Source: a virus. From it: a stretch of 24,190 nucleotides of DNA. The position numbers were made by a program, and so were the translations under genes. The notes below the pieces were generated by a model. It made no database searches and was not told the DNA's origin. It saw only the letters and a program-made list of their open reading frames with translations. The number at the start of each line of letters is the position of its first letter. The first letter of the stretch is position 1. The stretch spans positions 1-24,190 of the IMG/VR virus record IMGVR_UViG_3300009034_002814. The stretch is one strand, 5' to 3'. Of this stretch, positions 3,149 to 18,827 are shown in pieces.

Positions 3149-4423
3149 ATGCCGTTCAAGTTGAAGCGTAAGTTTCCATTCATTGAATATCGAGTGGCGC
3201 AACTCAAAAGCATAATCGCTGAATCGGGTAAACTTCTTTGGGGTGGCGAACCAACTTTTGAGCCTAAAAACGTGGACACTTATTATAAGTATTTTGAAAA
3301 CGACGGCACGGTTCAACGTAGCATCACGGATTTGGCGGAGCAAGCTTGGGGACAAGGGTTCTTCACTACGGTTGACGAAGATCAGAAAGCTAAAGATTTA
3401 TGCGACGAGTTCTGTCAAAAAATGAATTTAGATGCTTTGTTGCCTAACATTGCGAAGAACATGTTGATTGCGGGGTTTCTTCCCGTAGAAACCAAAATCA
3501 ACGCGTTGCCGAGTAAATGCGTGTTAAAGATTGTACATCCTAAAACAATTTCAAACATTATTTTAGATCCGAAAACAGCGGAAATCAATTTCATTCACCA
3601 AAAAGGCAGAAAACTAAGTTTGCGACCCATCAAAATTTTAGAAAGAGACTTATCATGGTTCGTTTACAACAAAATTGGCAATGATCCGAGGGGAAGTAGC
3701 CTTTTAAAAGGCATCGTTGCCATTCTCGGTTACCAATCAAACGCAATTAAAAACATGGATAAAATCTTAGCGCGCCACGCTAGTCCGTTAGGCATTTGGA
3801 AAAGCAAACGGGCGATAGATGCCATAAGGAAAGTGGTTACGGAAGCTGAGGCGGGAGAAGACCTTTTCCTCGGCAACCTCACAGACGAAGAAATCAAAGA
3901 TTTAGTTCAGTTCATTCAGCTTGATCCACGCGCTCGTTTCTGGGAATACAACGAATATTTGGATCGCAAAATCTACGAAAACTTAGGCGCCCCCTCTCTT
4001 GGGTATTGGCGTAACGCAACGGAAGCGTCAGCAAACAAACTTGATGATATTGTGTTGCGGAACATTTACGCTCTTCAACGCAACGTTAAGCGGATTGTTG
4101 AAGCTAAATGGTTTGCGCCTCTCTGCGAAAAAAATAACTGTACGGAAGTTCCGAAGCTTGAAGCGGGCCTCGAAAAAACAGGCGTAGAAGAATTAGACAT
4201 TAGCACTTTCATAACGAAAGGACTAGAAATAGGCTATATCTCTCTAACCCAGTTCACGAAGTTGTTGCAACAAATGGGTCTCCGGATTGAGGAGGAAGAA
4301 GAAGGCGAAGTTTCTGGCGCAGCCCAACCGCCTGAAGAAACTCCAGAAGAGGGCGAAGAAGAGGAGACATTGAAAGCTGAGAAACTAAAGCTTTACAGGA
4401 AAATGTTGGAGAAACTAGGATGA
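3149..4423 (+). CDS. Portal protein
   Basis: A 424-residue protein matching phage portal proteins in length, order and motifs. The portal forms the dodecameric ring at the capsid vertex through which DNA is packaged by the terminase. Visible hallmarks are the N-terminal wing region with YYKYFENDGTVQRSITDLAE (about 48-67), the beta-rich segment around KIVHPKTISNIILD, the conserved NDPRGSSLLKGI motif (about 181-192) leading into the long stem and clip helices, and NLGAPSLGYW about residue 280. The C-terminus (about 380-412) is a Glu-rich low-complexity tail (EEEEEGEVSG, EETPEEGEEEE), followed by a short basic helix. It lies a few genes downstream of terL as usual and overlaps the next gene by four bases (ATGA). 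Confidence 0.92.
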   Translation: MPFKLKRKFPFIEYRVAQLKSIIAESGKLLWGGEPTFEPKNVDTYYKYFENDGTVQRSITDLAEQAWGQGFFTTVDEDQKAKDLCDEFCQKMNLDALLPNIAKNMLIAGFLPVETKINALPSKCVLKIVHPKTISNIILDPKTAEINFIHQKGRKLSLRPIKILERDLSWFVYNKIGNDPRGSSLLKGIVAILGYQSNAIKNMDKILARHASPLGIWKSKRAIDAIRKVVTEAEAGEDLFLGNLTDEEIKDLVQFIQLDPRARFWEYNEYLDRKIYENLGAPSLGYWRNATEASANKLDDIVLRNIYALQRNVKRIVEAKWFAPLCEKNNCTEVPKLEAGLEKTGVEELDISTFITKGLEIGYISLTQFTKLLQQMGLRIEEEEEGEVSGAAQPPEETPEEGEEEETLKAEKLKLYRKMLEKLG

Positions 4424-4755
4424 TAAAAAAGAAACATTTAATGTTTTACACCGACGAAAAATGCACGGTGCCAACGGAAGATTTCGGTTTCGGTCGCTTA
4501 AAAGGCGGCGACAAGAAAACCCGTGTTTTTTATGTTCGAAACGAAAGTTACGGCGACCTTGAGGACATAACGGTAAAATTAAATCCTAGCCTAAAACCGG
4601 ACGTTCATTATAAGTTGCTTTCGTCAAAGAAAATTAAACGCCTCGCATTAAACGATGTATTTCAAGTTGTGTTGGAAGTCGCAGTTGCCGAGGGGCTCCC
4701 CGCTGGCAAATATCCAGCTCAAGTGTCATTTAAGTTTTGGTTAACAAAAGAATAA
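4420..4755 (+). CDS. Small beta-sandwich protein, possible virion or neck accessory
   Basis: A 111-residue protein starting inside the portal stop (ATGA). The sequence alternates strand and turn in an Ig-like pattern: YTDEKCTVPTEDFGFG, then TRVFYVRNESYGDLEDI, then VFQVVLEVAVAEGLPAGKY and AQVSFKFWL. The arrangement recalls NEW3/ASH-type Ig folds, where 'variable polar - YVRNES - DI-V-L' marks the B-C strands. No catalytic motif is present. Following the portal it may be a decoration or adaptor protein; this is inference from position and fold only. Confidence 0.65.
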   Translation: MIKKKHLMFYTDEKCTVPTEDFGFGRLKGGDKKTRVFYVRNESYGDLEDITVKLNPSLKPDVHYKLLSSKKIKRLALNDVFQVVLEVAVAEGLPAGKYPAQVSFKFWLTKE

Positions 4756-4774
4756 AAGGCAGTCGGCATGTAAG

Positions 4775-6130
4775 ATGGCTTGGCTTTCTGGTTGGCGCAA
4801 ACGAGTTAAAATCACCGTTGATTCAGGTGATGTCGACAGCAACTTGGCATGGTTTCCCGTTCTCATTTACCTCAGCGCCTTATCGGGCTTAAACAGTAAG
4901 GACGTAAGCTTCGTTTTCGACGAGCTTGGAAGCAACTATAAGAGGGTTGCCGTAACCAAAAGTGATGGTATAACAGAGCTTTATGTTGAAGTTGAAAAAT
5001 GGGATGTCACTAATGAGAAAGCTTGGCTATGGGTGAGCCGAGACGGATGGACAATAGCCAGTGGCTCTGATACCGATCTATATCTTTATTACGATAACAC
5101 GCATGCAGACAATAACGCTTACGTTGGCGACCCGAATAGCGCACCAGCAGAAAAAGTTTGGGATAGCTATTTCAAGCTTGTAACTCACATGAGAGACGAC
5201 CCTGACACAAGCCACGTCCGAGATAGCACAGACCAAAATAATGATGGAACAAAGAAGGGAGCAAATGAACCACAAGTTACAACCGACGGTCAGATAGATG
5301 ATGCACAAGACTTCGACGGCACAAATGATTACGTGAGAATTAATGATGACCCGTCTCTACACTTTGGCACCAGCACGGACTTCACAGTTGAATACTGGTT
5401 TAAACCCGTAACGGGCGCAAGTGGAAAAATAGTCTTCGGTTCCTATGGTGGAGTTGGAAAGGGGGAATATCAGAATTATTATCTCAACGACAAAATCCGC
5501 TATAAGTTGGTGGACAAAGATGCGAACCTAGTGCAATTCTACTCGGATGCTATCCTACCTGTTGGTAGTTTCTATCATATCACGATGGTTTCAGATAGAG
5601 ACGGTAATGGGTCAATATATATTAACAGTGTCTTTAATAAGAGTGCCAGCATTGCAGCATTAGGCGATGTAACCACGGATACGGTCTGGGATATTGGGCA
5701 GTTATCGGCTCTTTACTTTAAGGGCATGGTAGACGAACTTCGTATATCTGATACTGCTCGTTTAGGTGCTTGGGTTAAAGCTTGCTACGAAACCCAAAGA
5801 GACCATCTGCTCACATACGGAAGCGAAGAAACCGCAATAGTGGGCGTTGGCGGACGCCTTTTAGACCGAAAAATCATTAGGTTGGAACGTCGTAAACCCC
5901 GAACACAACACGTGAACATTGTTGTTGACGTTCGCAGGCAGACGCAACAAACTGTTCCAATAGAAATGTTGGTTCGCCGAAAAATAGAACAATTAATGGA
6001 AACTTCTATTTCGGTTCGGAGACAAACGAGCCAAACTGTTCTTGTTGAAACAACTATCCCACTTAGTGCCGACGAATTTTTTGGGTTGGCGATACAGTTG
6101 TTGCTTCTTGAAACACTCGATAATGATTGA
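4775..6130 (+). CDS. DUF2341 / LamG-domain surface protein with C-terminal RR repeats
   Basis: A 451-residue protein. Residues about 1-130 resemble DUF2341 (WLSGWRKRVKITVDSG, the WLWVS and LYLYYDN strands, then NSAPAEKVWD). Residues about 155-340 form a LamG/concanavalin A-like jelly roll with the signatures DDAQDFDGTNDYVRI, FTVEYWFKP, YHITMVSD and KGMVDELRISD. Residues 372-428 carry four tandem 14-15-residue units each beginning RR. The end is hydrophobic (FFGLAIQLLLLETL). DUF2341 and LamG domains bind glycans or mediate adhesion in archaeal and phage surface proteins. No signal peptide is seen, which fits an intracellularly assembled virion protein. Its place among head genes, not tail genes, is odd; a capsid fibre is possible. 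Confidence 0.8.
   Translation: MAWLSGWRKRVKITVDSGDVDSNLAWFPVLIYLSALSGLNSKDVSFVFDELGSNYKRVAVTKSDGITELYVEVEKWDVTNEKAWLWVSRDGWTIASGSDTDLYLYYDNTHADNNAYVGDPNSAPAEKVWDSYFKLVTHMRDDPDTSHVRDSTDQNNDGTKKGANEPQVTTDGQIDDAQDFDGTNDYVRINDDPSLHFGTSTDFTVEYWFKPVTGASGKIVFGSYGGVGKGEYQNYYLNDKIRYKLVDKDANLVQFYSDAILPVGSFYHITMVSDRDGNGSIYINSVFNKSASIAALGDVTTDTVWDIGQLSALYFKGMVDELRISDTARLGAWVKACYETQRDHLLTYGSEETAIVGVGGRLLDRKIIRLERRKPRTQHVNIVVDVRRQTQQTVPIEMLVRRKIEQLMETSISVRRQTSQTVLVETTIPLSADEFFGLAIQLLLLETLDND
5888..6058 (+). repeat. Four tandem 14-15-residue RR repeats inside the LamG protein
   Basis: The coding sequence contains four consecutive units: RRKPRTQHVNIVVDV, RRQTQQTVPIEMLV, RRKIEQLMETSISV and RRQTSQTVLVETTI (residues 372-386, 387-400, 401-414, 415-428). 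Units 2 and 4 are most alike. Each has a basic start and a following alternating-hydrophobic strand, suggesting a stacked beta-structure or a basic binding stalk. Confidence 0.75.
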
Positions 6131-6144
6131 GAAAGAGAGTAACA

Positions 6145-6321
6145 ATGCCCGTCATGGATCCGTATAAAAAAGCGCTTGCTCAACAAAGTAAAATCCGCCA
6201 TTTTCGTTTGTGCCGTAAATGTCGCAAAAAATTTCGGAAACTAAATAAATGTCCGAGATGTGGCTCACGCAACTTTCGTGAAGTTCATCATGACGCGCTT
6301 CAGAAAAGGAGACGCGCTTGA
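6145..6321 (+). CDS. Basic zinc-ribbon microprotein 4
   Basis: A 58-residue, strongly basic protein with CRKC (about residues 24-27) and CPRC (about 38-41), ending in a Lys/Arg tail (QKRRRA). The fold is a single zinc ribbon like those of ribosomal or RNA-polymerase accessory proteins, so nucleic acid binding is likely. I chose ATG 6145, preceded by the purine-rich GAGAAAGAGAG (6128-6138); a TTG at 6127 would add six residues and overlap the previous gene. It overlaps the next small gene's start by a base or is adjacent to it. Confidence 0.7.
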   Translation: MPVMDPYKKALAQQSKIRHFRLCRKCRKKFRKLNKCPRCGSRNFREVHHDALQKRRRA

Positions 6322-6445: not shown

Positions 6446-8347
6446 ATGCCTTGGGACGTGACGGATCAATATATAAGAAGCGGTCATAAAACACCTGGGG
6501 ACCCTTGCCGAACCATTACAATAAGCGCGGATCAAGGAATCAAAGCGATTTATTGTAAATATGGGGACAAATGGGCTATTCAAAGCTACCTTTTCAGTAA
6601 AGCTAAGGGATGGACAGTGAGCAAAGCGAAGGCGTGGTTTCAGCAACACAGAGAAAGCGTAAAAGAAACGCGTCACGACGATTTTCAGCAGATTCTTGAC
6701 CGTTTTGTAATGTTTTTCGGCGATGAGGAAGGAACCCAAATGTATAAAGACTTCCTCAAACAAAACGGACTTGACGAAACTAAACCTTACACCATTGAAG
6801 ACCAAATTTTAGATGAGAAACTCCGAGAAAGCTTCGAGTGGACGGAACCCCTCATCAAATATTGGAAGAAAGATAAGGAAGCCAAATATTACAAAACTCG
6901 GTTGCTTACTGCGAACATCAGCATGAACCTGAACGATTACACAAATCCAGAAGACATGACTTTCGCCGCCAGCAACTTGGGTTGGCGCCCCTTAAACATA
7001 GATCATGACCATAGACTGCGCCTTCCGTTTCCCGATAACCGTTTGGAAATTGGGCGAGTTAGCGAAGAGGGAAACAGCATTGAAGCTGTTCTCCGTATTC
7101 ACAACGAATCCAAAAAGATTCAAGACATGATTAAAAACCGAAAGGTTGTTCATCCAAGCATCGAGGCCCATCCCATTTGCGGCATCACAAAACAAGATGG
7201 ACACAACATTCCAACTTGTGGTTACTATTTAGATGAAGTTGCTTTGTTGCGAAAGAAATATCATTTGCCTGGGGATCCTCTCAGCCAGATTTTCCCTATG
7301 CCCCTAAACGAATCTCTCGCAACACGGTTGGTTGAATCTTTACAAACTCATGATCATGGAGTTTTATCTCAGATGAAAGAAAATATAACACCGAGAGGTG
7401 AAAATAAAAAAATGACTAAAAAAGAAGAAAAAACGCAAGAACAATTCACTGATTTACCAGACAGTTCATTTGCATGTATAGTAGGTGAAGGCGACAGCAA
7501 AATCAGGAAACTACCAATCCACGACGCAGCTCATACACGAAACGCGATGGCACGCCATAACCAAACGGAAGGGTGTCAAACAGCCGAAGTTAAGGCAAAA
7601 ATCTGTCGGGCAGCAAGAAAATTTAACATTGAAAACGCTTTTGAAAAAGGCGGTTTTTGTTATACAGGCGAATCTGTTGAATCCATCGAAGAGATGGCCA
7701 AGAAAGACAACAAAATCAATGAGTTAACTCAGAAAGTTTACGAATTAGAGAAAGATGGCGTTGTGAAGGACGAAACGATAATTCAATCGAAAGAATCAAT
7801 CGAGCGGATGGCAAAGAAAATCGCAAAAATGGAGAGAGATGCATCCAAAACCACATCGAAAGACGCGGAAAACAAAGAAACCATAAAGAATCTACACGCA
7901 AGAATCGCTGAATTGGAAACTACTCAAAACGAATTGAAGGGTGAAAACGTTGAACTTAAAGATCAAGCGGAAATCGCAAACAGTGAGAAAACCGAACTCG
8001 GAAATCAGAAAGATAACTTAGAAGAAGCAAACGCAAAACTACGTACGCGAGTCAGCAAACTTAGTGCAGAATGCGACGAAGCAAAATCTGAAACCGCAAA
8101 AGCAAAGCAAGATGCCATAAACGAAACTAGGGCGCGTGCAACTCTTCAAGAAGATAACGCTGATTTACGCGAGCAAGAAGCAGATAGTGCGAGGCGAATC
8201 AGCGAGTTAAGCACCAAGCGAGTCGAAGATGCAAGGCGAATACACAAACTTGAAGAAGAACTAGGGCAGACAAAAGATACGCTTCAAGAGGCTCTCTATA
8301 AACTAAAGAAAACTCGGCGCATCGCGAAGATCAAAATAAAACGCTGA
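6446..8347 (+). CDS. Prohead protease fused to coiled-coil scaffold
   Basis: A 633-residue head-assembly protein. Residues about 1-75 form an N-terminal module seen in phage head proteins (SGHKTPGDPCRTITISADQG, then WAIQSYLFSKAKGWTVSKA). Residues about 145-290 look like an HK97/U35-type serine protease: NIDHDH (His187 or His189) and VVHPSIEAHP (Ser238). The His-Ser spacing of about 50 matches HK97-family proteases. Residues about 335-400 resemble the DUF6582 module (LPDSSFACIV, RKLPIHDAAHTRNAMAR, KICRAARKF). Residues about 410-620 are a long charged coiled coil, the likely scaffold, which the protease would remove during maturation. It lies directly before the capsid gene, as expected. An internal in-frame ATG (residue 323) has its own ribosome binding site. 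The protease call rests on these motifs and position. Confidence 0.85.
   Translation: MPWDVTDQYIRSGHKTPGDPCRTITISADQGIKAIYCKYGDKWAIQSYLFSKAKGWTVSKAKAWFQQHRESVKETRHDDFQQILDRFVMFFGDEEGTQMYKDFLKQNGLDETKPYTIEDQILDEKLRESFEWTEPLIKYWKKDKEAKYYKTRLLTANISMNLNDYTNPEDMTFAASNLGWRPLNIDHDHRLRLPFPDNRLEIGRVSEEGNSIEAVLRIHNESKKIQDMIKNRKVVHPSIEAHPICGITKQDGHNIPTCGYYLDEVALLRKKYHLPGDPLSQIFPMPLNESLATRLVESLQTHDHGVLSQMKENITPRGENKKMTKKEEKTQEQFTDLPDSSFACIVGEGDSKIRKLPIHDAAHTRNAMARHNQTEGCQTAEVKAKICRAARKFNIENAFEKGGFCYTGESVESIEEMAKKDNKINELTQKVYELEKDGVVKDETIIQSKESIERMAKKIAKMERDASKTTSKDAENKETIKNLHARIAELETTQNELKGENVELKDQAEIANSEKTELGNQKDNLEEANAKLRTRVSKLSAECDEAKSETAKAKQDAINETRARATLQEDNADLREQEADSARRISELSTKRVEDARRIHKLEEELGQTKDTLQEALYKLKKTRRIAKIKIKR
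7393..7414 (+). promoter_or_regulatory. Internal ribosome binding site and start for a free scaffold protein
   Basis: GAGAGGTG at 7393-7400 lies 11 bases before ATG 7412, which is in frame with the protease gene (codon 323). The product from here, about 311 residues, would begin MTKKEEKTQEQF and contain the DUF6582-like module and the complete coiled coil but no protease. This is the lambda C/Nu3 arrangement. Confidence 0.55.
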
Positions 8348-8390: not shown

Positions 8391-8421
8391 TGACTATTTT
8401 ACGTAAGTCACCTAGAGCGAA

Positions 8422-8463
8422 CCTCCCCAATGACGGGGGTCGGCAGAGTGAGGGCGCCTGTCG
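8422..8463 (+). other. GC-rich structured leader of the capsid mRNA
   Basis: In an otherwise AT-rich gap, two adjacent hairpins can form: CCCC 8425-8428 with GGGG 8435-8438, and CGGCAG 8441-8446 with CTGTCG 8458-8463 (one G-U pair). No good ribosome binding site is seen directly before ATG 8508, so the leader may set mRNA stability or translation. Confidence 0.4.
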
Positions 8464-8507
8464 TGACGCACAGCAGTGTGATCCAGCCCAAAATTAAGTG
8501 ATGTATT

Positions 8508-9635
8508 ATGTCAGAAGAAAAAGAAATCACCGTTGAAGTTGATTTAGGTAGCGTAAAGAAGGAACTGATTGAAGCATTAGACCTCCGTTTCAAGGAACTA
8601 AGCGAGAAGATGGTTCCCGGAGAAACTCCAGACAGCGAAACAGAAGACCTAGAAGACGACACGCCAACAGACTACCGAATTGGCCTTGTTGAGGCTTTAA
8701 CCAACACAAAGAAAGACTTTGTTTGGAGAGGTCCCCAAGACAACAAGGAAGCCGCAGAAGTTGTCGGCGAAGTAAAAGTTGCTGACCCGAAACTTCAAGA
8801 GGCAATAGGCGCTGTCACAGCGACAAACGCTATTCCAGAGATTTGGGCTGCTGAAGTTGAAAGACTCAGCCAATACCCTGAATCTGCTTTCTGGAACGCG
8901 CCTTACATAAACTGGAAAAAAGATATCCAAGGCAAACCAGGTGACACAATTAACGTTATAACTGTTGCTCCAGTCACATGTGCAGACCTTGCTTGTGAAG
9001 AACCGACAACCACAGCAGCCTCAATCGGTAAAGTTCCAATCACGTTGGCTAACAAAGTTTGTGCTTACTACATTTGTAAAGCGGACATGGAAGATGTTGT
9101 GCCGGACACTATAAACGCTCTTAACGAGGGTTTAGCTCGGTGTCTAGCTGAATGTATAGACAACTACTTCCTAACGCAAGCACAAGTAGGCGCTAACGCT
9201 GGAACCTTAACTGAAGCAGGCGCTATGGTTGGCACGGTTATCGCAAAAGCAATGGGAAGCGTCCAAGCTGGGACATATGAACCAGTTGCGTTGATCATGC
9301 ATCCAGTTGTGTACAAGGGTCTAATGCAGGACAGTCAATTCACGAATGCAGCTACTTTTGGCAACCGTAGCGTTATTGAGCGTGGCGAAATCGACAGTTA
9401 CCTTGGCGTTCAAATGGTTGAAAGGCCAAAGGGTACTTTGTTGATTGGAGGCGGAACTTACAGGAGCCTCTTGCTGGCTAAAGGCGCTATTGCAGGTGCC
9501 ATTAAACGCGCTATCGAAGTTGAAACCGAATATGTTGTGCGTTTGCAACAGAAATTCGTGTTGGCAAGCGTGCGGTTCGGTGGAACTGTCGTGCACACCA
9601 ACGGTATTTTCTGGATACAAACCGTGCAAAGCTGA
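8508..9635 (+). CDS. Major capsid protein, HK97 fold
   Basis: A 375-residue HK97-type major capsid protein. Residues about 1-60 are a charged helical delta/scaffold-like arm (KEITVEVDLGSVKKELIEAL) with an acidic linker, probably removed by the upstream protease. The core begins about residue 95 (LQEAIGAVTATNAIPEIWA). The extended loop and spine follow (KPGDTINVITVAPVTCADLA and the ADMEDVV helix region), then the A-domain (LIMHPVVYKGLMQDSQFTNA, SYLGVQMVER) and the terminal FVLASVRFGGTVVHTNGI strand typical of the family. Several Cys (TCADLACEE, KVCAYYICKAD, RCLAECID) are unusual for a capsid protein and could form metal sites or cross-links. It has its own promoter-like region, and hairpins follow its stop directly. 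Family assignment is by pattern and gene order. Confidence 0.88.
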   Translation: MSEEKEITVEVDLGSVKKELIEALDLRFKELSEKMVPGETPDSETEDLEDDTPTDYRIGLVEALTNTKKDFVWRGPQDNKEAAEVVGEVKVADPKLQEAIGAVTATNAIPEIWAAEVERLSQYPESAFWNAPYINWKKDIQGKPGDTINVITVAPVTCADLACEEPTTTAASIGKVPITLANKVCAYYICKADMEDVVPDTINALNEGLARCLAECIDNYFLTQAQVGANAGTLTEAGAMVGTVIAKAMGSVQAGTYEPVALIMHPVVYKGLMQDSQFTNAATFGNRSVIERGEIDSYLGVQMVERPKGTLLIGGGTYRSLLLAKGAIAGAIKRAIEVETEYVVRLQQKFVLASVRFGGTVVHTNGIFWIQTVQS

Positions 9636-9734: not shown

Positions 9735-11714
9735 TTGGAGAAAAAGAAAGTTAAGTATAGTAGCAAGAAAAAGTTCAAAGGCTCAAAAAACAGCGATTTT
9801 TACGGCGAAGGATATTTCTTAAGCGCCCAAGGAAGCAACTATGGTCGCCGAGACAAAACTGGAAACCTACTTTTCGTTCCCTACGAAGAACAATATTATT
9901 TGCCTCGCAACCGAGAAGTTGCAAAACACATCGTTCAAAAGTTTCATCCACAACGAGTTTTAGTTCTTGGGTGTGCTCGCGGTTACCTTGTTAAAGCCCT
10001 CCGCGCACTGAATATTGATGCTGTTGGTGTTGACATTAGCGCGTGGGCAATCGAAAATGCACCGAGCGATGTTCAAGATTTCTTGTACGTCGGCGACATA
10101 TGTGATCTCTCGCTCTGGAAGAACAAAAGCTTTGATGTAGTAGTGGCCTTCGACGTTCTAGAGCATATTCGAATTCCCGACTTATACAAAGCCATAAGCG
10201 AAACGTGTAGAGTTGGAAAAAACGTTTTATTAGATGTTCCAATCGCCGATGACGATTTAAGCCCCGACAGAAGCAATGGAACCGACAAAAGCCATGTTAG
10301 TGTTTACACGCCAGATTGGTGGAAAAAACAATTCAAAAAAAGAGGATTACTATCCACCGCAGAACATGTATATAGTTATCCCGAAGGCGACAAAGGCGCT
10401 TCCATTACTTTTCGACCAAAAAAATATCGGCGAAAAACGGTTGTATCGGTTTCCCCCGATAGTAAAAATTTCAGAATCCTACTTTTAAGCAATGCACCCT
10501 TCGTTCCTTCAGGCTACGGAGTGCAAACCGGAGGCATGGCTTATCGATGGTTGAAACATTATGATGTTCGGGTGTTAGCGAATTACGGTCTTGAGGGCCG
10601 AGCGTTAGGTTTGAATGATTTGTATATTTACCCGAAACTGTATAACGACGAATTTGGCGCGTTGACAGCCCAGCTAGTTAATGCTTACTGGAAATATGAT
10701 GTTTTAGTAACGCTTTTTGACATTTGGATGGGTGCTTTCACAACACCGAAACTTATTCATCCCCGCTGGATCCCCATCGTTCCCGTCGATCATAAACCGA
10801 TTCCTGAACAGACACTTCAGCAAGCAACACAAGCCTACAAAGTTGTTGCCATGAGCAAATTTGGTTATGACCAGTTTCGGCAAGGAGGAATTGAAGCGGA
10901 GTTTATTCCGCACGGTATTGACACGAATGTTTTTAAGCCGTCGGAAAACAAGAAAGAAGACAAGATATGGCTTGAAAAACACAGCAAATCAATGAATGCA
11001 CCATCTATTGTGGAAATAACTGAAGATTCCTTCTTAATTGGAGTAAACGCCGCCAACAAAGACCCGTTCCGCAAAAGTTTTCCGCGAATGATGTTAGGAT
11101 TCCAAATCTTTCTAGACAACAACCCAGACGCAAAAAAAGATGCGCGAATGTATATTCACGCTTGGCAAAGTGGCGCCCGAAATCTTCAACGAGACGCACG
11201 GGTGTTGAAGGTTGACAAATATATTAAAACAACTTTCATGTATGACCTGCTTTGTGGCCTCAACGACCAAAACATGACGCGCATGTATAACGCCCTAGAT
11301 GTTTTCGGTAATTGCGCTCAAGCAGAAGGTTTTGGGATTCCAATTTTAGAGGCGTGTGCGTGTGGTGTGCCTCCGATTACAACTGATTGGACAAGCATGA
11401 CTGAATTAACAGTGGGTCATGGCTGGTTGATTCCGCCATTAACGAATTATTTGACGGCGTTAAGCAGTTTGTGGGCGATTCCCAACGAATATAAAATCGC
11501 CGAAGCCTACGAAGATGCCTACAACAACCCTAAAAAAGTTCGTAAACTAGGGAAAAAAGCCAGAAAATTTAGTTTAGGTTACAACTGGGATACGCAGGTT
11601 ATTCCTAAGTGGATTCGGCTTTTTGAAGATGTTCGCGCGGAAATAAAAAGCTTTGGGATTAGCGAGGAGAAAAACAAGGCTTACCTCGAAAAAGCAAAGG
11701 AAATTCTAGCATAA
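9735..11714 (+). CDS. Methyltransferase-glycosyltransferase fusion protein
   Basis: A 659-residue two-domain enzyme starting at TTG 9735, with AGGAGA (9721-9726) at good distance; no in-frame ATG fits better. The N-terminus is very basic (KKKVKYSSKKKFKG). Residues about 65-200 form a class I SAM methyltransferase: VLVLGCARGYLVKAL (motif I), AVGVDIS (acidic end of strand 2), DVVVAFDVLEHI (motif IV/post). Residues about 235-650 form a GT-B glycosyltransferase of the GT4 type: SNAPFVPSGYGVQTGG (N-terminal Gly-rich loop), SKFGYDQF and FIPHGIDTNVF, and QAEGFGIPILEACACGVPPI with the E-x7-E donor site. It probably transfers an activated sugar and methylates a sugar or protein acceptor. It is the first gene of the accessory island behind the capsid gene. 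The acceptor is unknown. Confidence 0.85.
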   Translation: MEKKKVKYSSKKKFKGSKNSDFYGEGYFLSAQGSNYGRRDKTGNLLFVPYEEQYYLPRNREVAKHIVQKFHPQRVLVLGCARGYLVKALRALNIDAVGVDISAWAIENAPSDVQDFLYVGDICDLSLWKNKSFDVVVAFDVLEHIRIPDLYKAISETCRVGKNVLLDVPIADDDLSPDRSNGTDKSHVSVYTPDWWKKQFKKRGLLSTAEHVYSYPEGDKGASITFRPKKYRRKTVVSVSPDSKNFRILLLSNAPFVPSGYGVQTGGMAYRWLKHYDVRVLANYGLEGRALGLNDLYIYPKLYNDEFGALTAQLVNAYWKYDVLVTLFDIWMGAFTTPKLIHPRWIPIVPVDHKPIPEQTLQQATQAYKVVAMSKFGYDQFRQGGIEAEFIPHGIDTNVFKPSENKKEDKIWLEKHSKSMNAPSIVEITEDSFLIGVNAANKDPFRKSFPRMMLGFQIFLDNNPDAKKDARMYIHAWQSGARNLQRDARVLKVDKYIKTTFMYDLLCGLNDQNMTRMYNALDVFGNCAQAEGFGIPILEACACGVPPITTDWTSMTELTVGHGWLIPPLTNYLTALSSLWAIPNEYKIAEAYEDAYNNPKKVRKLGKKARKFSLGYNWDTQVIPKWIRLFEDVRAEIKSFGISEEKNKAYLEKAKEILA

Positions 11715-12127: not shown

Positions 12128-12544
12128 ATGGATAAAGAAGTTTTGGAGAAGATAACAAAGAAAATCAAGGCAAAAGACTACGAATTAATTAGCAACGATG
12201 TTCGCGGCAAAATTTGGCGCTTGGAAGTTGACGGCAAAGAATACATTTTAATGTACACCGTCAAAGGCGAAGTGCGCGGTGGAGATTTCCACAAGTCGGT
12301 TCAACACGATTTTGCTTTGAAGGGGCGCGTTTTCTTTATAGAAAAAACATGTTTGACGTGTCCCGACGGCAAAGGCGAAAATCTTCGTGTCGTGCATCCG
12401 GGACAAGAGATCATTTTAGCGGTTGGTGTTCCTCATATGATGGTTAGTTTTGATGAATCGCTTGTTTTAGAGTGGCTTGAGGGTCCTTTCGAAAAGACGT
12501 ATTATCGTCCTTTTCGCGACAAAATTGAGGCGAAACCGCAATGA
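12128..12544 (+). CDS. Cupin-fold protein, probable nucleotide-sugar modifying enzyme
   Basis: A 138-residue single-domain protein with GGAGAA just upstream of ATG 12128. The second half has a cupin-like barrel: GEVRGGDFHKSVQHDFALKG (His-containing first motif), then VHPGQEIILAVGVPHMMVSF (Pro-Gly turn and second His). Its stop overlaps the start of the dehydratase gene (ATGA), and such pairs often make deoxy- or keto-sugars, so a sugar isomerase or epimerase role (RmlC/FdtA-like) is plausible. Not all metal or catalytic residues can be matched by eye, so a non-catalytic sugar-binding cupin remains possible. Confidence 0.7.
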   Translation: MDKEVLEKITKKIKAKDYELISNDVRGKIWRLEVDGKEYILMYTVKGEVRGGDFHKSVQHDFALKGRVFFIEKTCLTCPDGKGENLRVVHPGQEIILAVGVPHMMVSFDESLVLEWLEGPFEKTYYRPFRDKIEAKPQ

Positions 12545-13506
12545 AATACTTTATAACTGGCGGTTCCGGCTTTATTGGGAGCAATTTCATCGATTATATA
12601 CTTAAAGAGAAAGGAAACGATGTTCTCAACTACAGCAGACATACTTACGCTATGAATCCGCGAATTTTACAGCATTTGGAGAACGAGGGGCGTTACAAGT
12701 TTGTTGCTGGCGACGTAACCAACGGCGTTTTCTTGCTTAAAACAATAGAGAAGTTTAAGCCAAGCTGTATAGTTCATTTCGCCGCTTCAACACATGTGGA
12801 TCGTTCGTTCCTTTACCCTGAAGAGTTCTTCCAAGCGAACGCTTATGGCACTTTCACGTTGTTGGAAGTGTTGCGAAATCTGAAAGATAAACCGCGACTG
12901 CTTTATATTTCAACTGATGAAGTTTTTGGCGACGTACCTACTGGTTTTTGTAAGGAAGAAGACCGGCTAGAACCTAGAAATCCTTACTCAGCAAGCAAAG
13001 CGGCGGCGGAACAGTTTGTAAATGCGTATCGCCATAGCTATGAAGTGCCAACGGTAATTGTGCGCCTTATGAATAATTTTGGGCCCCGCCAACATCCTGA
13101 AAAACTCATATCAAAAATCATCACACGATGTTTAACCGACACGCCTTTCACATTGTTTAAAGGCGGATCGACACGTGGCTGGATTTATGTTGAAGATTCA
13201 TGTAGAGCAATTGACGAAGTTTTAATTCGAGGGAAAACTGGCGAAATTTATCATGTTCCTCCAACCGCATACAAAACCGTGCCTGAAGTCGCAGAAACCA
13301 TCTTGAACATAATGAGCAAACAAGAGCTCTTTCAAGGGTTTAAGGGACGCCGTCTCAAAGATGACGAACGCTACAGTTTAGACGGTTCAAAACTGATGTA
13401 TGGTCTGGGATGGAGACCATCCACAGAATTTGAGGAAGGGCTGAAACAGACGATAGAATGGTATCGCAAGAATGAATGGTTCTGGAAGCAAGTTTATGCC
13501 CCCTAA
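12541..13506 (+). CDS. NAD-dependent sugar dehydratase, dTDP-glucose 4,6-dehydratase-like
   Basis: A 321-residue extended short-chain dehydrogenase. The N-terminus has the Rossmann motif GGSGFIGS (residues about 7-14). HFAASTHVDRSF (about 80-91) and STDEVFGD (about 122-129) are signatures of dTDP-glucose 4,6-dehydratases, with the Thr-Asp-Glu needed for dehydration. Tyr149 and Lys153 (YSASK) form the catalytic pair. NNFGPRQHPEKLI and RGWIYVEDSCRAID match the substrate-binding region. It would turn an NDP-hexose into the 4-keto-6-deoxy sugar. It overlaps the cupin gene before it and the glycosyltransferase after it, forming a sugar-making and sugar-transferring unit. The exact nucleotide sugar cannot be read from sequence. 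Confidence 0.88.
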   Translation: MKYFITGGSGFIGSNFIDYILKEKGNDVLNYSRHTYAMNPRILQHLENEGRYKFVAGDVTNGVFLLKTIEKFKPSCIVHFAASTHVDRSFLYPEEFFQANAYGTFTLLEVLRNLKDKPRLLYISTDEVFGDVPTGFCKEEDRLEPRNPYSASKAAAEQFVNAYRHSYEVPTVIVRLMNNFGPRQHPEKLISKIITRCLTDTPFTLFKGGSTRGWIYVEDSCRAIDEVLIRGKTGEIYHVPPTAYKTVPEVAETILNIMSKQELFQGFKGRRLKDDERYSLDGSKLMYGLGWRPSTEFEEGLKQTIEWYRKNEWFWKQVYAP

Positions 13507-14323
13507 AGTAGACCTCATCATCCTCAATTTTAACGGCTTAAAACATCTCAAAAATTGTCTAGCAAGCCTCTACAAAAATACGGAATACCCATTCCATCTT
13601 ATTATTGTTGACAATGCAAGCACTGATGGAAGCCAAGAATGGCTTACCTCCTTCGCAAAAAACAGAAACAATATAACTCTACATTTCAACGAAAAACCCG
13701 ATGGTGGTTTCAGCGAAGGAAACAACACGGGCCTCAAATATGCTAAAAACGAGTTTGTTCTGTTACTCAACAATGACGTATTGATTATCGAGCGTGGATG
13801 GCTTAAACGCCTCGTAAAAGAAATGGAACAAGATGAACAAGTTGGGATAATAGGAACCAAACTTGTCTATCCAAGCGACTTGATTCAGCATGCGGGTGTT
13901 TCCTTCGGCTACGACCCCTCTGCCGATCAGATGGCGCCGTTTCATCTTGGACGTTATTTTCCGCGCAACCAAAAAGAATTTAACATTCAACGTGAAGTTC
14001 CAGCCGTAACTTTTGCGTGTGTGTTGATTCGCCGACAACTGTTGAAAGATGGGTTGGATGAGGCTTACATTAAAGGATGCTACGAAGACACCGATTTCTG
14101 CCTGAAAGTTCGGAAGCAAGGCTACAAAATCTTGTATGTTCCCATCGAACTCTACCATTACGAAGGCGCAACCAACTTAGCGAAACCGAAAGGCGAATGG
14201 ATGGGGCAACTGCAAAAAAATTTTCAGCTTTTTTTGAGTCGCTGGAACGAGTGGTTGAAAGAAGACATTAAAAAGAATGTGGATTTGTATGATCCAAAAG
14301 GCCCAGTTAAAACATATTCCTAA
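13496..14323 (+). CDS. Family 2 glycosyltransferase
   Basis: A 275-residue GT-A fold enzyme. The N-terminus has the nucleotide-binding pattern VDLIILNFNGLKHLKNCLAS and IIVDNASTDGSQEW (family GT2). The metal site follows at LLNNDVLII (DXD-like, about residues 87-95), and GCYEDTDFCLKVRKQGYKI is the typical acceptor/catalytic ED motif (about 196-214). It resembles rhamnosyl- or similar transferases for surface polysaccharides. I chose ATG 13496, with GGAAG 13484-13488 as binding site; an upstream ATG (13472) would add eight residues and deepen the overlap with the dehydratase gene. There is no transmembrane segment. Confidence 0.87.
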   Translation: MPPKVDLIILNFNGLKHLKNCLASLYKNTEYPFHLIIVDNASTDGSQEWLTSFAKNRNNITLHFNEKPDGGFSEGNNTGLKYAKNEFVLLLNNDVLIIERGWLKRLVKEMEQDEQVGIIGTKLVYPSDLIQHAGVSFGYDPSADQMAPFHLGRYFPRNQKEFNIQREVPAVTFACVLIRRQLLKDGLDEAYIKGCYEDTDFCLKVRKQGYKILYVPIELYHYEGATNLAKPKGEWMGQLQKNFQLFLSRWNEWLKEDIKKNVDLYDPKGPVKTYS

Positions 14324-14456
14324 GAAAAATCGCATTTTGGCTGTTTGTCGCAGACAATGGCGTGTTGCTTTGCCCTGTAATTGGGTGAGAAATGGTTGTT
14401 GTGGTTGCGACGCGAAACCTTGTGTGTTACTGTTTTTCAGTGCAAGGGAAAAATAA
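14289..14456 (+). CDS. Cys-rich microprotein (55 residues)
   Basis: A frame not covered by neighbours runs from ATG 14289 (inside the end of the glycosyltransferase) to TAA 14454-14456, whose last base is the A of the next ATG (TAATG). The product is basic and has a Cys cluster, GCCGCDAKPC, preceded by AVCRRQWRVALPC: six Cys in 26 residues. The stop-start overlap and the Cys pattern, shared with other microproteins here, make translation plausible. ATG 14265 is in frame too and would give about 63 residues minus; the exact start is uncertain. No family recognised. Confidence 0.4.
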   Translation: MIQKAQLKHIPKKNRILAVCRRQWRVALPCNWVRNGCCGCDAKPCVLLFFSAREK

Positions 14457-15679
14457 TGGCGAAAGTCACATTAATCCATCCTAGCAACGAGTTTCTTTCG
14501 ACGCCAAAAATGTATTTCTCGTTAGGTCTACTTTATATTGCGGCGGTTTTGGAAGAAGCGGGACACGAAGTTAAGGTTGCGGATTTGCGTGGCAACGAGG
14601 GGTTAGATGCTGTTCCGAGGGCGCAGTTTTATGGAATAACGGCTACGACTTCGATGCAGATAAGTCACGCCAAAAAACTTGTTCGTCAACTCAAAAGCCG
14701 AGATCCTTGGTCCGTAACGGTTCTTGGTGGACATCACGCCCTCTATTTCCCCGAAGAATGCGCCAAACATTTCGATGTTGTTGTTGTGGGCGACGGAGAA
14801 AAAACCGTTTTAGACGTTGTTGACGGGCGCGCGCGTGGAATAGTTTACGGCGGACTTACTAAGGATTTAGATAGTATCCCTTTTCCTGCGCGTCATTTAT
14901 TGCCTGAAGAAGCAGTGTTTAGCAACGCGTTGTTTGAGGGTGAAAAGTATGGTAAGGGTCCTAAAGCAACCACAATCATCACTAGCCGAGGTTGCCCCTA
15001 CCAATGTGCGTTTTGTCCGCAAATGAAAATAATCCGGTTCCGTAGTCCCCAAAACGTTGCCGAGGAAATCCGGTATCTACAGAAGCGTTACAACTGTCAT
15101 CATTTCCGTTTTGTCGACGACAGCTTCACGATTAACAAGAAGAGACTGTTTGAAATCTGTAATTTGTTTGAGCCACTAAACATTCATTTTCGCACGCAAA
15201 CACGAAGCGATCTTCTGGAACCTGAAATGTGTGAAGCACTCTGCAACGCTGGTTGCGACGAGCTGGGGTTAGGCGTTGAAACCGCTAACGACAACGTGTT
15301 AAAGTTGATTAAGAAAGGCGAAACCGTAGAAGATCACCGTCGTGCCGTGGAAATGGCAAAAGAATCGGGGTTGCGCGTTAAAGTTAATTGGATGACTGGT
15401 TTGCCAGGGGAAACGTGGAAAACCATCGAAGAAAACAAGGCGTTTATGCGGGAGATGAAGCCTGACCGTTGGATTTTAAATCAGTTTTGTCCGTTTCCAG
15501 GATGCGATATATGGAGAAATCCAGAGAAGTATGGCGTCAAAATTTTGAATCGTGACTGGAGTTTATACTACAACTTCACGAAAAGCTTCATAGAAACCGA
15601 CGTGGCTTCAAATGAAGAGTTAAACGCGCACTTTGACGAGTTCCGCAGGTTTCTATTTTCAGAGGAATGGCGAAAATGA
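14456..15679 (+). CDS. Radical SAM protein with B12-binding-type N-terminus
   Basis: A 407-residue protein. Residues about 1-135 look like a cobalamin-binding Rossmann domain (VTLIHPSNEF, LGLLYIAAVLEEAGHEVKVAD, VLGGHHALYFPE, DVVVVGDGEKTV), but the DxHxxG cobalt ligand is not seen, so B12 may be bound base-off or not at all. Residues about 175-370 form the radical SAM TIM barrel, with the [4Fe-4S] motif GCPYQCAFC (Cys180, 184, 187), FRFVDDSF, CDELGLGVETAND and VNWMTGLPGET. Members of this class methylate or rearrange sugars, lipids and natural products, so a sugar-modifying role fits this island, but the substrate is unknown. I chose ATG 14456, which has AAGGGAA upstream, over an ATG at 14381. 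Confidence 0.85.
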   Translation: MAKVTLIHPSNEFLSTPKMYFSLGLLYIAAVLEEAGHEVKVADLRGNEGLDAVPRAQFYGITATTSMQISHAKKLVRQLKSRDPWSVTVLGGHHALYFPEECAKHFDVVVVGDGEKTVLDVVDGRARGIVYGGLTKDLDSIPFPARHLLPEEAVFSNALFEGEKYGKGPKATTIITSRGCPYQCAFCPQMKIIRFRSPQNVAEEIRYLQKRYNCHHFRFVDDSFTINKKRLFEICNLFEPLNIHFRTQTRSDLLEPEMCEALCNAGCDELGLGVETANDNVLKLIKKGETVEDHRRAVEMAKESGLRVKVNWMTGLPGETWKTIEENKAFMREMKPDRWILNQFCPFPGCDIWRNPEKYGVKILNRDWSLYYNFTKSFIETDVASNEELNAHFDEFRRFLFSEEWRK

Positions 15680-15903
15680 AATTATGTTGTGATTGGTTAG
15701 GATGTAAGAATCCGGCTTTCCTAGAAGTGGATTATGAAAATCGAAAGAGGGATTGGGTATGGAGTAACCTTTGCCTTCCACATTCCATTATCGAATTAAT
15801 TTTCAAAAGAAAATACTACAAAATGGGCTGGTGTCTATCCCAAGTTTGGTATTCTCATTTCTGGGATACTGTTTGGAAAGTTATGGTTAAGCTATTACCA
15901 TAA
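15676..15903 (+). CDS. Small Cys/Trp-rich protein
   Basis: A 75-residue protein overlapping the radical SAM stop as ATGA. It starts MKLCCDWLGCKNPAFLEV, with CC, C and a later NLCLPH, which could be a four-ligand zinc site (C, C, C, H). The second half is rich in Trp, Tyr and Lys (KRKYYKMGWCLSQVWYSHFW). An upstream ATG at 15667 exists, but GAGG 15661-15664 is better spaced for 15676. Function unknown; it may be a partner of the enzyme it follows. Confidence 0.6.
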   Translation: MKLCCDWLGCKNPAFLEVDYENRKRDWVWSNLCLPHSIIELIFKRKYYKMGWCLSQVWYSHFWDTVWKVMVKLLP

Positions 15904-15914
15904 GGAAATTAGAC

Positions 15915-16904
15915 ATGAAAGTTGATTTGGTTACGACATGGAATACGAATTGCGGGATGGCCTACTATTCTAGGTATCTTTCCGAGGCGCTCCGCAAATT
16001 TGTTGACGTAAAAATCTGTCGCGTGGACCCTAGTTTCACTCGCGAAGAGTTTGCTAAGGCGATTGACAGTTGCGAAGGAGATGTTGTGCATGTTGAACAT
16101 GAGTGGGGCATCTACAACGGCAATGAAGACATGATCTTGGATATCCTCAACAAAAAACGGGTCCCCATAGTTATGACCGCGCATGGCGGTGGATATCAAC
16201 GGTTTTTCGGTAAAGTCGCCAAAATCGCTGTGCCAAACAAGTCGCAGCGTGGACATGTGATAAGCGACGATTTTATTCCGATTTTGCCTCACGGAGTTAC
16301 ACGCTACGAAAAAATGGATAAAGAAAAAGCGCGCAAAGAGCTGGGAATAACTCGGCGACATGTTGTTACTCAATGGGGTTTCATTCTTCCGCACAAGTGC
16401 TACGAACTTGTTTTAGACGCAATTAAAGATTGGGATGACGTTTGCTATTTGGTTGCTGGAAGCGAAGAACGCAACTTTGATTATTGGCTGAAACTTCAAA
16501 AACTGACGAAAGAGTGGAATGTTAAGGCTGAAATCATTAAAACGGGTTTCTTGCCTGAAGAGAAGATTCCGACGGTTTTCGGCGCCACTGACCTCTGCGC
16601 TTTCCCTTACCTAACTGGTATCGATAGCGGATGCTTACGGTACGCTTTAGGCAGTAAAGTGTTGAGTCTCGGATCACCCGCACCCTTCATTCAGGAAATA
16701 TTTAGTCAATATGGAATTCCATATATTAGTAAGGCGCCGTGGGACAAAAACTTCGGCACTGCTATCCGACAATTGCTGGAAAAAGAAGACTTAAGCGATT
16801 ATGAAGCTCGTTGCGAAAGGTTTGCCGAAGAAAACAGTTGGGCGAACGTAGCGAAGAAACATTTTGAGCTTTACAAACAAGTATTAGAGGAAAAGACGAA
16901 ATGA
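15915..16904 (+). CDS. GT-B glycosyltransferase
   Basis: A 329-residue GT-B type enzyme, with AAGGAAA just upstream of ATG 15915. The N-terminal half begins MKVDLVTTWNTNCGMAYYSRYLSEAL, the Gly-containing acceptor loop usual for GT4 proteins, and contains DVVHVEHEWGIY, a common 'H-E-WG' segment, and PIVMTAHGGG. The linker and C-terminal half have FIPILPHGVTRY, TQWGFILPHKCYELVLDAI and ATDLCAFPYLTGIDSGCLRYALG, the donor-binding region. The usual E-x7-E acidic pair is not clear here. It is shorter than standard GT4 proteins (about 370), so it may be a trimmed form. It probably transfers a sugar in the same pathway. It overlaps the next gene by four bases. Confidence 0.78.
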   Translation: MKVDLVTTWNTNCGMAYYSRYLSEALRKFVDVKICRVDPSFTREEFAKAIDSCEGDVVHVEHEWGIYNGNEDMILDILNKKRVPIVMTAHGGGYQRFFGKVAKIAVPNKSQRGHVISDDFIPILPHGVTRYEKMDKEKARKELGITRRHVVTQWGFILPHKCYELVLDAIKDWDDVCYLVAGSEERNFDYWLKLQKLTKEWNVKAEIIKTGFLPEEKIPTVFGATDLCAFPYLTGIDSGCLRYALGSKVLSLGSPAPFIQEIFSQYGIPYISKAPWDKNFGTAIRQLLEKEDLSDYEARCERFAEENSWANVAKKHFELYKQVLEEKTK

Positions 16905-17149
16905 ACGTAATCAGATTTGGTTACATGATCTTGGAAAACGAGGGGCTATATGATTGGAAAATTAATATGGTTGAAGGCGACGAAGGTTTCTGTCACAAAG
17001 ACAGTAAAACGATAAATTTTGGGCAAGAATCTGAGAACAATTTTAAACTTATGATTCATGAAATCGCACATTGTCTAACAGACGCTTATCACTATTCCGA
17101 CGAATTTGAGAGAACTGTCAAAATTCTAGAAGAAAAATACTTGAAGTGA
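16901..17149 (+). CDS. Minimal HExxH metalloprotein
   Basis: An 82-residue protein overlapping the preceding stop (ATGA). Residues about 51-56 carry MIHEIAHCL, the HExxH zinc motif of metallopeptidases, followed by DAYHYSDEFERTVKILEEKY, which offers a third ligand (His or Asp/Glu) at a distance seen in SprT/Wss1-type small proteases. The N-terminal half forms a strand pair around GLYDWKINMVEGDEGFCHKDS and KTINFG, a typical prelude ('IxF' edge strand) in such enzymes. It is very small for an active protease but complete in its core. No signal peptide, so it acts in the cytoplasm or in the virion. Its substrate is unknown. Confidence 0.65.
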   Translation: MNVIRFGYMILENEGLYDWKINMVEGDEGFCHKDSKTINFGQESENNFKLMIHEIAHCLTDAYHYSDEFERTVKILEEKYLK

Positions 17150-17153
17150 AGAC

Positions 17154-17780
17154 ATGGTTGCTCTCTTGCTTAATCATCCTGAATCCGCTTTTATTCTAGA
17201 GCTTCGAACCTTGCCTCGAGGCGAATTGTTTATTGATGTGGGCGCTAACGCTGGTTACTATGCGATTGATTTGGCGGATCGCTACGAAGAGGTTTGGGCG
17301 GTTGAACCCTGCAAAGTATTTGTAGACCAATTATGGTTCAACATTAAACGCTTCAAAATTTCAAACATTAAAGTAATTGAAAAAACAATCAGCGACAGAA
17401 CGGGAAAGGCCGTTTTCTACGGCAATTTTTTAGTTCCTATGGGACAAGACAACCCAAGTTTAAAGCGGGATCTCACACTTAGTTTTGAGGGGCGCCAAAA
17501 AACGCTTCCCATGAAAATGGAAGAAGTGGAAACAACCACTTTAAGCGAGTTAATAGGAAATCGAGAAGTCGATTTAATTAAAGTGGACACTGAAGGCAAC
17601 GAGCTTGAAGTTTTGTGGGGAAGCCTAACCGTTATGTCGCAAATTCAAGCGTGGCATATTGAAGTTCATAATTGGGCGGAAACTCCGGCTATAACAAGTT
17701 TGCTGGAAGTTTATGGTTTCAAAGTTAAGGAAAGAGGTTTAGACGGGAGAGGCCGAGGGTGGTTACTGGCGACAAGGTGA
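17154..17780 (+). CDS. FkbM-family SAM methyltransferase
   Basis: A 208-residue methyltransferase of the FkbM type, which O-methylates sugars or polyketides. Motif I reads LFIDVGANAGYYAIDLADRY (about residues 23-44), the acidic loop VWAVEPCKVFVDQL follows, and LSELIGNREVDLIKVDTEGNE (about 133-150) is the FkbM-specific catalytic strand. The end, with HIEVHNW and a GFKVKE strand, matches the family. It starts four bases after the metalloprotein gene. It likely caps or decorates glycans built by the nearby transferases. Domain order and length are normal. Confidence 0.87.
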   Translation: MVALLLNHPESAFILELRTLPRGELFIDVGANAGYYAIDLADRYEEVWAVEPCKVFVDQLWFNIKRFKISNIKVIEKTISDRTGKAVFYGNFLVPMGQDNPSLKRDLTLSFEGRQKTLPMKMEEVETTTLSELIGNREVDLIKVDTEGNELEVLWGSLTVMSQIQAWHIEVHNWAETPAITSLLEVYGFKVKERGLDGRGRGWLLATR

Positions 17781-17785
17781 ATAGA

Positions 17786-18070
17786 ATGTTTTGGGCGCGC
17801 CTTTATCAAAACCGAACTTTACACATGACATTTATATGGTCTTATCTTCCTGAGTGGCTATGGATTTTCAAATATATACCTGAACAAATCTGGATGAAAT
17901 ACCATAGTTTAGAGCACTTCCTTATAACTCCCCTTAACATATGTATCGCCCTCTTACTTTGTGTAATCAACGGACATCAAATCTCTTGGGTGGATTGTGT
18001 AATCTCATTTAATGATCCAGTGGTTGGTTGCTGTGATCGATGTGGAAAAATTGTTGAGTGTAAGCGGTAA
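17786..18070 (+). CDS. Small membrane-like protein with C-terminal Cys cluster
   Basis: A 94-residue protein. AGGTGA at 17774-17780 precedes ATG 17786 at good distance; GTG 17777, overlapping the FkbM stop, is an alternative start. The body is rich in Trp, Tyr, Phe and His (TFIWSYLPEWLWIFKYIPEQIW), with a hydrophobic span ITPLNICIALLLCVI (about 54-68). The C-terminus has GCCDRCGKIVECKR, four Cys that could bind zinc. It overlaps the next glycosyltransferase by about 59 bases. Not recognised; it could anchor the transferase machinery or be a zinc-binding adaptor. Confidence 0.5.
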   Translation: MFWARLYQNRTLHMTFIWSYLPEWLWIFKYIPEQIWMKYHSLEHFLITPLNICIALLLCVINGHQISWVDCVISFNDPVVGCCDRCGKIVECKR

Positions 18071-18827
18071 AGAGATAAAGGGACCCGTTTGGATCGGCGA
18101 AGAAAACTTAGATGCCGACGCTAACGTGGCGGTTCTTCTCAGCACTTTTAATAGGCCCACTATGGTCGTCAAAGCTATAACCAGCATTTTAGAGCAAACC
18201 TACAAAAGCTGGAACCTTTACATCATTGACAACAATAGCTTACCTCGAGTCAAAGATGTATTGTTAAAGTTTAGGAAGGTTCCAAGGGTTGCGCTTTATT
18301 TTTCTGACACGCAAGCGCAGGAGCGGTTAGATAAGTATTGGTTGGGCGTTATGTTTAACATTGGGTTGCGGAAAGGCAAGGAAGAATTTATTGTGCCTTT
18401 AACCGACGATTGTTATTTACTTCCTCACAGTATCGCAACTAAAGCGGAGTTTTTGGAACGAAATCCGCATGTGATGATTTGTTTTGGGGGGCAATACATC
18501 ATTAAAAAAGATGGGGAAATCCTTCGCATTAGAAACCAATTTCCCCTCGGCTACAAAATCATAAAAGGCTCTTGTGTGGTTGACACTTGCCAAATAATGG
18601 TGCAAAGGAGATTGATGGAGGAGGTAGGGCTCTTCAACGAGGATATTGGTAAGCAACCGTATCCTTGGGTTGACGCCAACTTGTTCGATGAAGCGCAGGC
18701 TCGTGGCTACCCGTTGTATTCGGTTGGTAAACGAACCGATGTTTTTGTTGAGCATGGGAAAAGCCAGATGAAATATTTGCGGGAGAACAGAAGAGCCGAA
18801 CTTCTTTCTGATGAAATCTGGGAATAG
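18012..18827 (+). CDS. Family 2 glycosyltransferase
   Basis: A 271-residue GT-A enzyme. The nucleotide-binding region is VAVLLSTFNRPTMVVKAITSI (about residues 39-60), followed by LYIIDNNS and the metal-binding TDDCYLL (about 130-136). The later segment VQRRLMEEVGLFNEDIG and YPWVDANLFDEAQARGYPL fits the GT2 acceptor helix with its acidic catalytic residue. The first 35 residues (to about GPVWIGEENLDAD) overlap the previous gene and have no clear start signal; GTG 18042 or TTG 18051-18054 may be the real start. It ends the accessory island. Confidence 0.8.
   Translation: MIQWLVAVIDVEKLLSVSGKEIKGPVWIGEENLDADANVAVLLSTFNRPTMVVKAITSILEQTYKSWNLYIIDNNSLPRVKDVLLKFRKVPRVALYFSDTQAQERLDKYWLGVMFNIGLRKGKEEFIVPLTDDCYLLPHSIATKAEFLERNPHVMICFGGQYIIKKDGEILRIRNQFPLGYKIIKGSCVVDTCQIMVQRRLMEEVGLFNEDIGKQPYPWVDANLFDEAQARGYPLYSVGKRTDVFVEHGKSQMKYLRENRRAELLSDEIWE

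Follow-up and report, generated by a model that had tools for sequence, protein, structure and literature searches.

The gene at positions 6446-8347 of the window, by which we mean the whole 24,190-nucleotide stretch of viral DNA analysed here (from IMG/VR record IMGVR_UViG_3300009034_002814), is probably a nested capsid protease-scaffold gene that gives two products from two in-frame starts. A protease half is followed by a scaffold-like half, and the second in-frame start stands at the joint between them behind a Shine-Dalgarno (SD) signal that is partly conserved among relatives; the two starts, the signal and the order of the domains can all be read directly from the sequence. A first-pass annotation had likened this arrangement to the nesting of C and Nu3 in phage lambda, and the comparison gains support from the presence of a joint ATG in every one of the 12 intact homologues, an N half predicted to have a capsid-protease fold, a C half predicted to form a long helix, and a capsid gene next in line. 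We regard the gene as a well-supported further case of the lambda C/Nu3 kind.

The IMG/VR record (24191 bases) carries, in order, genes for a terminase (902-2140) and a portal-like protein (3149-4423), then the protease-scaffold gene and the major capsid gene (Table 1). A gene of 129-139 residues (L029:5409-5828 and its equivalents; L numbers denote loci of the comparison) lies between the protease-scaffold and capsid genes in 8 of the 8 loci listed; it is also found in L004 and L025 and is absent from the window. Directly behind the head genes, the window encodes a fused methyltransferase/glycosyltransferase (9735-11714), and positions 12128-18827 hold a run of epimerase-, radical-SAM- and glycosyltransferase-like genes, identified by eye from their translations. 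Also by eye, the head-morphogenesis-like protein at L046:3298-4818 has an apparent intein-like insert (CLIPGTLVTTNKG ... VHNC).

Table 1. Features of the protease-scaffold gene and its neighbourhood. Coordinates are those of the window unless a locus is named; residues are those of the long product unless stated.
Feature	Coordinates	Strand	Basis or remark
Long product: protease and scaffold-like half, 633 aa	6446..8347	+	Open frame; protease half homologous to 11 other intact genes
N-terminal 70-residue module (YIRSGH...GIKAIYCKYGDKW)	6446..6655	+	Also behind DUF2213-type proteases, also as separate ORF; no match in a Pfam scan
Protease fold, residues about 142-300; candidate catalytic His187 and Ser238	6869..7345	+	AlphaFold model matches; residues in 12/12
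Low-confidence linker, residues 284-322	7295..7411	+	pLDDT <50
Internal Shine-Dalgarno, GAGAGGTGA	7393..7401	+	
Internal start ATG, Met323	7412..7414	+	
Predicted short product: free scaffold-like protein, 311 aa	7412..8347	+	
DUF6582 module, residues 350-396	7493..7633	+	Pfam profile
Long helix, coiled-coil-like, residues 92-310 of short product	7685..8341	+	Predicted model; weak SMC coiled-coil matches
Major capsid protein gene	8508..9635	+	Phage_capsid_2 E 3.9e-6; phrog_267 E 1.8e-9; 42% identity to L004 homologue
RNA element, copies in ten loci	L025:6782-6861, L029:5891-5974, L031:5892-5984, L032:5889-5969, L036:5861-5964, L037:5902-5983, L038:5898-5981, L039:3766-3845, L040:5876-5956, L041:5872-5951		

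The first-pass annotation had placed a ribosome binding site ahead of an in-frame ATG at codon 323, between the protease and a DUF6582-like half, and each of these particulars holds. The motif GAGAGGTG occupies 7393-7400, 11 bases ahead of the ATG at 7412-7414, which by (7412-6446)/3 = 322 is codon 323 of 633, in frame with the ORF and between the protease fold (residues about 142-300) and the DUF6582 module (residues 350-396). The GAGGTGA at 7395-7401 lies ahead of this ATG. SD energy was taken as the pairing of 17 bases (-20 to -4) with the 16S tail (anti-Shine-Dalgarno), and internal start codons were those beyond codon 30 of the 29 listed plus-strand ORFs. At -11.7 kcal/mol the site ranks first of 107 in-frame internal ATGs in the window, first of the 322 internal ATG, GTG and TTG codons, and, when both strands are taken together (792 ATGs), second only to the start of the ORF at 20923. 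Across the 20 related loci of the first scans, this energy was matched by none of 803 internal ATGs but by 5 of 159 gene starts, and in the window itself the median SD energy was -4.9 for gene starts (n = 21) versus -1.7 for internal ATGs (n = 99; p = 6.5e-9). The RNA around 7412 is weakly folded, ranking sixth of 98.

Under synonymous-codon shuffling, the energy of the window site was reached in 11% of trials (P = 0.11), AGAGGTGAA being favoured by the Arg-Gly-Glu encoded there. Between the GAGG core and the ATG lie 13 nt, a spacer longer than the usual 5-9; among 86 starts with a recognisable SD in the 20 loci, 62 had spacers of 5-10 nt and two had spacers of 13 nt. A TATA-like stretch of archaeal type at about 7380-7388 was weighed as a possible promoter of its own and rejected, because a simple pattern placed 16-45 nt before the ATG found such a stretch in the window but not in any of the 11 relatives.

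Relatives were taken from viral metagenomes. A search with the 70-residue N-terminal module gave 19 loci, an alignment of the protease half gave L025/L026, and ten further contigs came from aligning the capsid protein and the protease half. The counted set comprised 12 intact homologous genes, which form nine clusters at 70% identity and whose protease halves are 33-88% identical. Left out as the same or near-identical contigs were L004, L022-L024, L026, L033-L035, L037 and L042-L045. L030, which has the same site sequence as L029, and L038, in which the frame is interrupted (it has the ATG and an SD of -9.9), were dropped as well. L011, a distant homologue (23-35% identity), was also left out; its protease part has two Mets close to the end, with SD energies of 0.6 and -3.2, and counting L011 as a miss would give 12 of 13. 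L028 and the other loci with the N-terminal module stand outside the count, their proteases not being aligned to that of the window. The genome contigs searched held no relative. When viral contigs were scanned with one protein at a time, the protease half retrieved a single relative and the C half, capsid protein and terminase retrieved none; the alignment queries gave more. In the phage collection, neither the full protease-scaffold protein nor the L003 protease half had a match, parts of the protein gave weak matches only (E 0.06-5), the protease-scaffold and capsid proteins had none at E 0.01, and the terminase and portal matched 739 and 11 records respectively, distantly.

An ATG stands at the joint in all 12 intact homologues, between an LVES-like protease end and the scaffold modules; it falls in one MAFFT column in nine of them, the linkers being longer in the window, L009 and L046. 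The joint Met was chosen by eye from listings in each gene before counting, and the 111 other internal Mets with which it was compared include the earlier linker Met of six of the genes (window, L003, L025, L029, L031 and L040). Ser or Thr follows the joint Met in 11 of 12 genes versus 14 of the 111 others (Fisher p = 3e-8), and in 8 of 9 when one gene per 70% cluster is taken (p = 3e-6); these and the following conservation p-values are optimistic because the sequences are related. An SD of -10.7 or stronger was found at the joint in 5 of 12 genes (window -11.7, L029 -11.0, L032 -12.1, L036 -10.7, L046 -11.7) versus 1 of 111 other internal Mets (p = 2e-5; by cluster 4 of 9, p = 7e-5). When the SD is required to be ungapped, five or more bases long and 4-13 nt from the ATG, 7 of the 12 genes and 10 of the 111 other Mets have one (p = 1.5e-4). 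AAGGA stands at 5 nt in L003 and L040. GAGGTGA and AAAAAAATG both recur in L046, which of all the relatives resembles the window least (33%).

The SD is weak, badly spaced or absent in the remaining five genes. The clade of L025, L039 and L041 keeps the ATG and has no real SD (-2.9, -2.9 and -3.9), and those of L031 and L009 are weak or poorly spaced. For L025 and L039, 97% of synonymous shuffles were at least as strong as the actual site, and the rank of the site among internal ATGs of its own locus is unremarkable in L003 (12 of 34), L025 (16 of 36) and L009 (9 of 40). Combined synonymous-shuffle p-values were 0.017 for all 12 genes and 0.008 for the nine cluster members. The first-pass annotation had proposed looking for the internal ATG and its SD in relatives: with a strong SD in only 5 of 12 genes and the ATG in all of them, conservation extends fully to the start codon and only partly to the SD.

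The N half models as a capsid protease fold of the T4 gp21/herpesvirus assemblin type. The AlphaFold model, made from five sequences, has a mean pLDDT of 65, a moderate confidence, and after re-alignment its residues 142-300 match pseudorabies assemblin (Z 8.8) and T4 gp21 (Z 8.7; rmsd 3.4 over 124 residues). The best 31 re-aligned structures were all herpesvirus proteases or T4 gp21, with Z of 6.2-8.8, which is near the level of a common arrangement; predicted viral prohead proteases in BFVD were also matched. Plain Foldseek against the PDB gave no match at E 0.001, with MCE proteins on top at poor rmsd and a herpesvirus protease seventh, and it was the re-alignment that moved the assemblins to first place. 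His187 and Ser238 are invariant in the 12 genes and form a candidate catalytic pair. Family searches against Pfam, PHROGs and NCBIfam did not name the protease, a PDB sequence search with it gave nothing useful, and a kinship with DUF2213-type proteases by profile comparison was unconvincing (probability 2%, E 0.023). No S49 peptidase appeared among the matches listed from Pfam profiles, Foldseek against the PDB, BFVD and the re-alignment.

The scaffold-like half might be freed by self-cleavage of the long protein within the linker, the internal ATG being incidental. P2 gpO offers a precedent, the predicted protease fold is present, a conserved LVES-like motif lies just ahead of the linker, and the clade of L025, L039 and L041 lacks an SD. 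However, self-cleavage requires neither the Met-Ser/Thr pair found in 11 of 12 genes nor the SDs, both of which are enriched at the joint, and we consider it unlikely; cleavage and internal initiation could also act together. It seems quite improbable that the ATG is a relic, the old start codon left unused after once-separate protease and scaffold genes were fused. Separate ORFs in sister cassettes and the differing modules behind the joint would fit such a history, but the Met is present in 12 of 12 genes despite protease halves that are 33-66% identical in 62 of the 66 pairs. In the linker alignment, the only residues otherwise kept at the frequency of the Met column (9 of 12) are the Leu beside the LVES motif (10 of 12) and a Glu (9 of 12), with nothing else comparable. 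A second start in use at the joint is the reading that we prefer.

In the model of the C half, built on four sequences, a single 219-residue helix spans residues 92-310 of the short product, pLDDT is at least 90 for 167 of 311 residues, and residues 1-91, mostly of low confidence, contain two short helices. DUF6582 (PF20223) scored 28.9 bits against a cut-off of 27.3 when residues 323-428 were scanned alone, and 23.6 bits, below the 27.3 cut-off, in the scan of the full protein. It is very improbable that the true scaffold is instead an N-terminal extension of the capsid protein, like the delta domain of HK97 described in a passage of PMC8508860, in which case the C half would be no more than a tail that targets the protease and the internal start would be noise: the capsid domain does begin about 70-100 residues in, as extrapolated from profile positions, and this extension aligns with that of L004, but a 219-residue helix with exchangeable domains is more than a tail needs, and the conserved internal start would be left unexplained.

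Returning to two products from one nested gene, the modules behind the ATG differ between relatives. In the window they are DUF6582 and the coil, in L003 a Cys-rich domain and the coil, in L009 the coil only, and in L025 a DUF6582-like part, a Cys-rich domain and the coil, the DUF6582-like part of L025 being inferred from alignment with the window; among the C halves scanned, Pfam DUF6582 matched that of the window only. A BLAST alignment of L003 with L025 breaks at L025 residue 233, three residues ahead of the Met, and resumes at 356, and L040 has an LPHH-containing domain behind the ATG, as read from its translation. The internal start may be a joint for the exchange of scaffold modules (DUF6582, Cys-rich and the LPHH-containing domain of L040) across a broad group of uncultivated tailed viruses, with each module entering both products, a proposal that we hold to be evenly balanced.

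Related cassettes with a DUF2213-type protease have a separate small ORF after the protease, whose SD energy is -7.1 to -7.3 in L002, L007 and L008, -4.7 in L005 and -0.1 in L013 (first start). The 70-residue module that stands ahead of the protease in the window lies behind the DUF2213-type protease in L002, L005, L007, L008, L010 and L013, the DUF2213 identity itself having been checked for L002 only. In L025 the module is a separate ORF (4001-4297) that overlaps the protease ORF (4278-6269) by 20 bases, and a GGAGG (in AAGGAGGT) stands six bases before the TTG start of the latter; the two ORFs are likely to be translationally coupled.

A covarying RNA element lies in the gap just upstream of the major capsid gene (Table 1); it consists of two hairpins, each with a possible pseudoknot. 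Its loops can pair downstream (GUGCC/GGCAC and GGGC/GCCC), the GGGC/GCCC pairing lying near the start region of the capsid gene. Across ten loci 96.8% of cells pair and both sides change in 11 of 19 pairs; of 500 shuffles, none reached the observed value on four of five measures and two did so on the remaining one. The slide control favours the structure because it was hand-drawn from these same sequences. The element had no Rfam match. A model built from the ten loci had no hit at E <0.01 in 32 sources other than these loci and their duplicates, and with filters off it gave weak, diverged traces in the window (8421-8492; 7.1 bits) and L046 (12 bits). Possible partial tandem copies of hairpin 1 lie upstream of the full copy in L040 (L040:5802-5875; 18.7 bits, E 0.087). 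The element could be a leader controlling translation of the capsid protein.

Each of the known systems closest to the window gene shares some of its features. Lambda C and Nu3 lie in the same reading frame. As in the account of lambda in a passage of PMC8508860, protease and putative scaffold share a single gene in the window, the frame of the scaffold lying nested in its 3' part; an excerpt of PMC10695390 lists C and nu3 separately, with C as an S49 family peptidase. Unlike in lambda, the matches to the protease of the window are of the gp21/assemblin type, another fold class, and the scaffold half, with those of the relatives, carries DUF6582 or Cys-rich modules. The predicted assemblin-type fold is shared with herpesvirus UL26/UL26.5, which likewise have a nested C-terminal scaffold in a shared frame. 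UL26.5 is made from its own transcript, whereas the signal for the short form in the window is a Shine-Dalgarno sequence. T4 gp21 is alike in its prohead-protease fold; the T4 core scaffold gp22 is encoded by a separate gene, unlike the single gene of the window.

Under the nested reading, initiation at 6446 would yield the 633-residue protein, made up of the N-terminal module, protease, flexible linker, DUF6582 module and long coiled coil. Initiation at ATG 7412, aided by GAGGTGA and a weakly folded, A-rich stretch, would yield the 311-residue protein without the protease. We infer that this short form is made, that it is the scaffold and that it is produced in excess. It would then polymerise with the capsid protein inside the procapsid, and the long form, incorporated by way of the coiled coil common to both, would digest the scaffold afterwards, an order of events that is likewise our proposal.

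This lineage was undescribed in the literature searched, which left out most subscription papers. The nested protease-scaffold layout would here be extended to a divergent lineage found in metagenomes only, and joined with a protease fold of the assemblin/gp21 type. Annotation pipelines would give one protein where two are likely made, and the short, clearly bounded frame together with 12 natural variants makes the proposal easy to test. If the internal start is indeed a joint for module exchange, a module arriving behind the ATG would join the free scaffold and the protease-scaffold at once, so that the parts could evolve while the two products stay matched.
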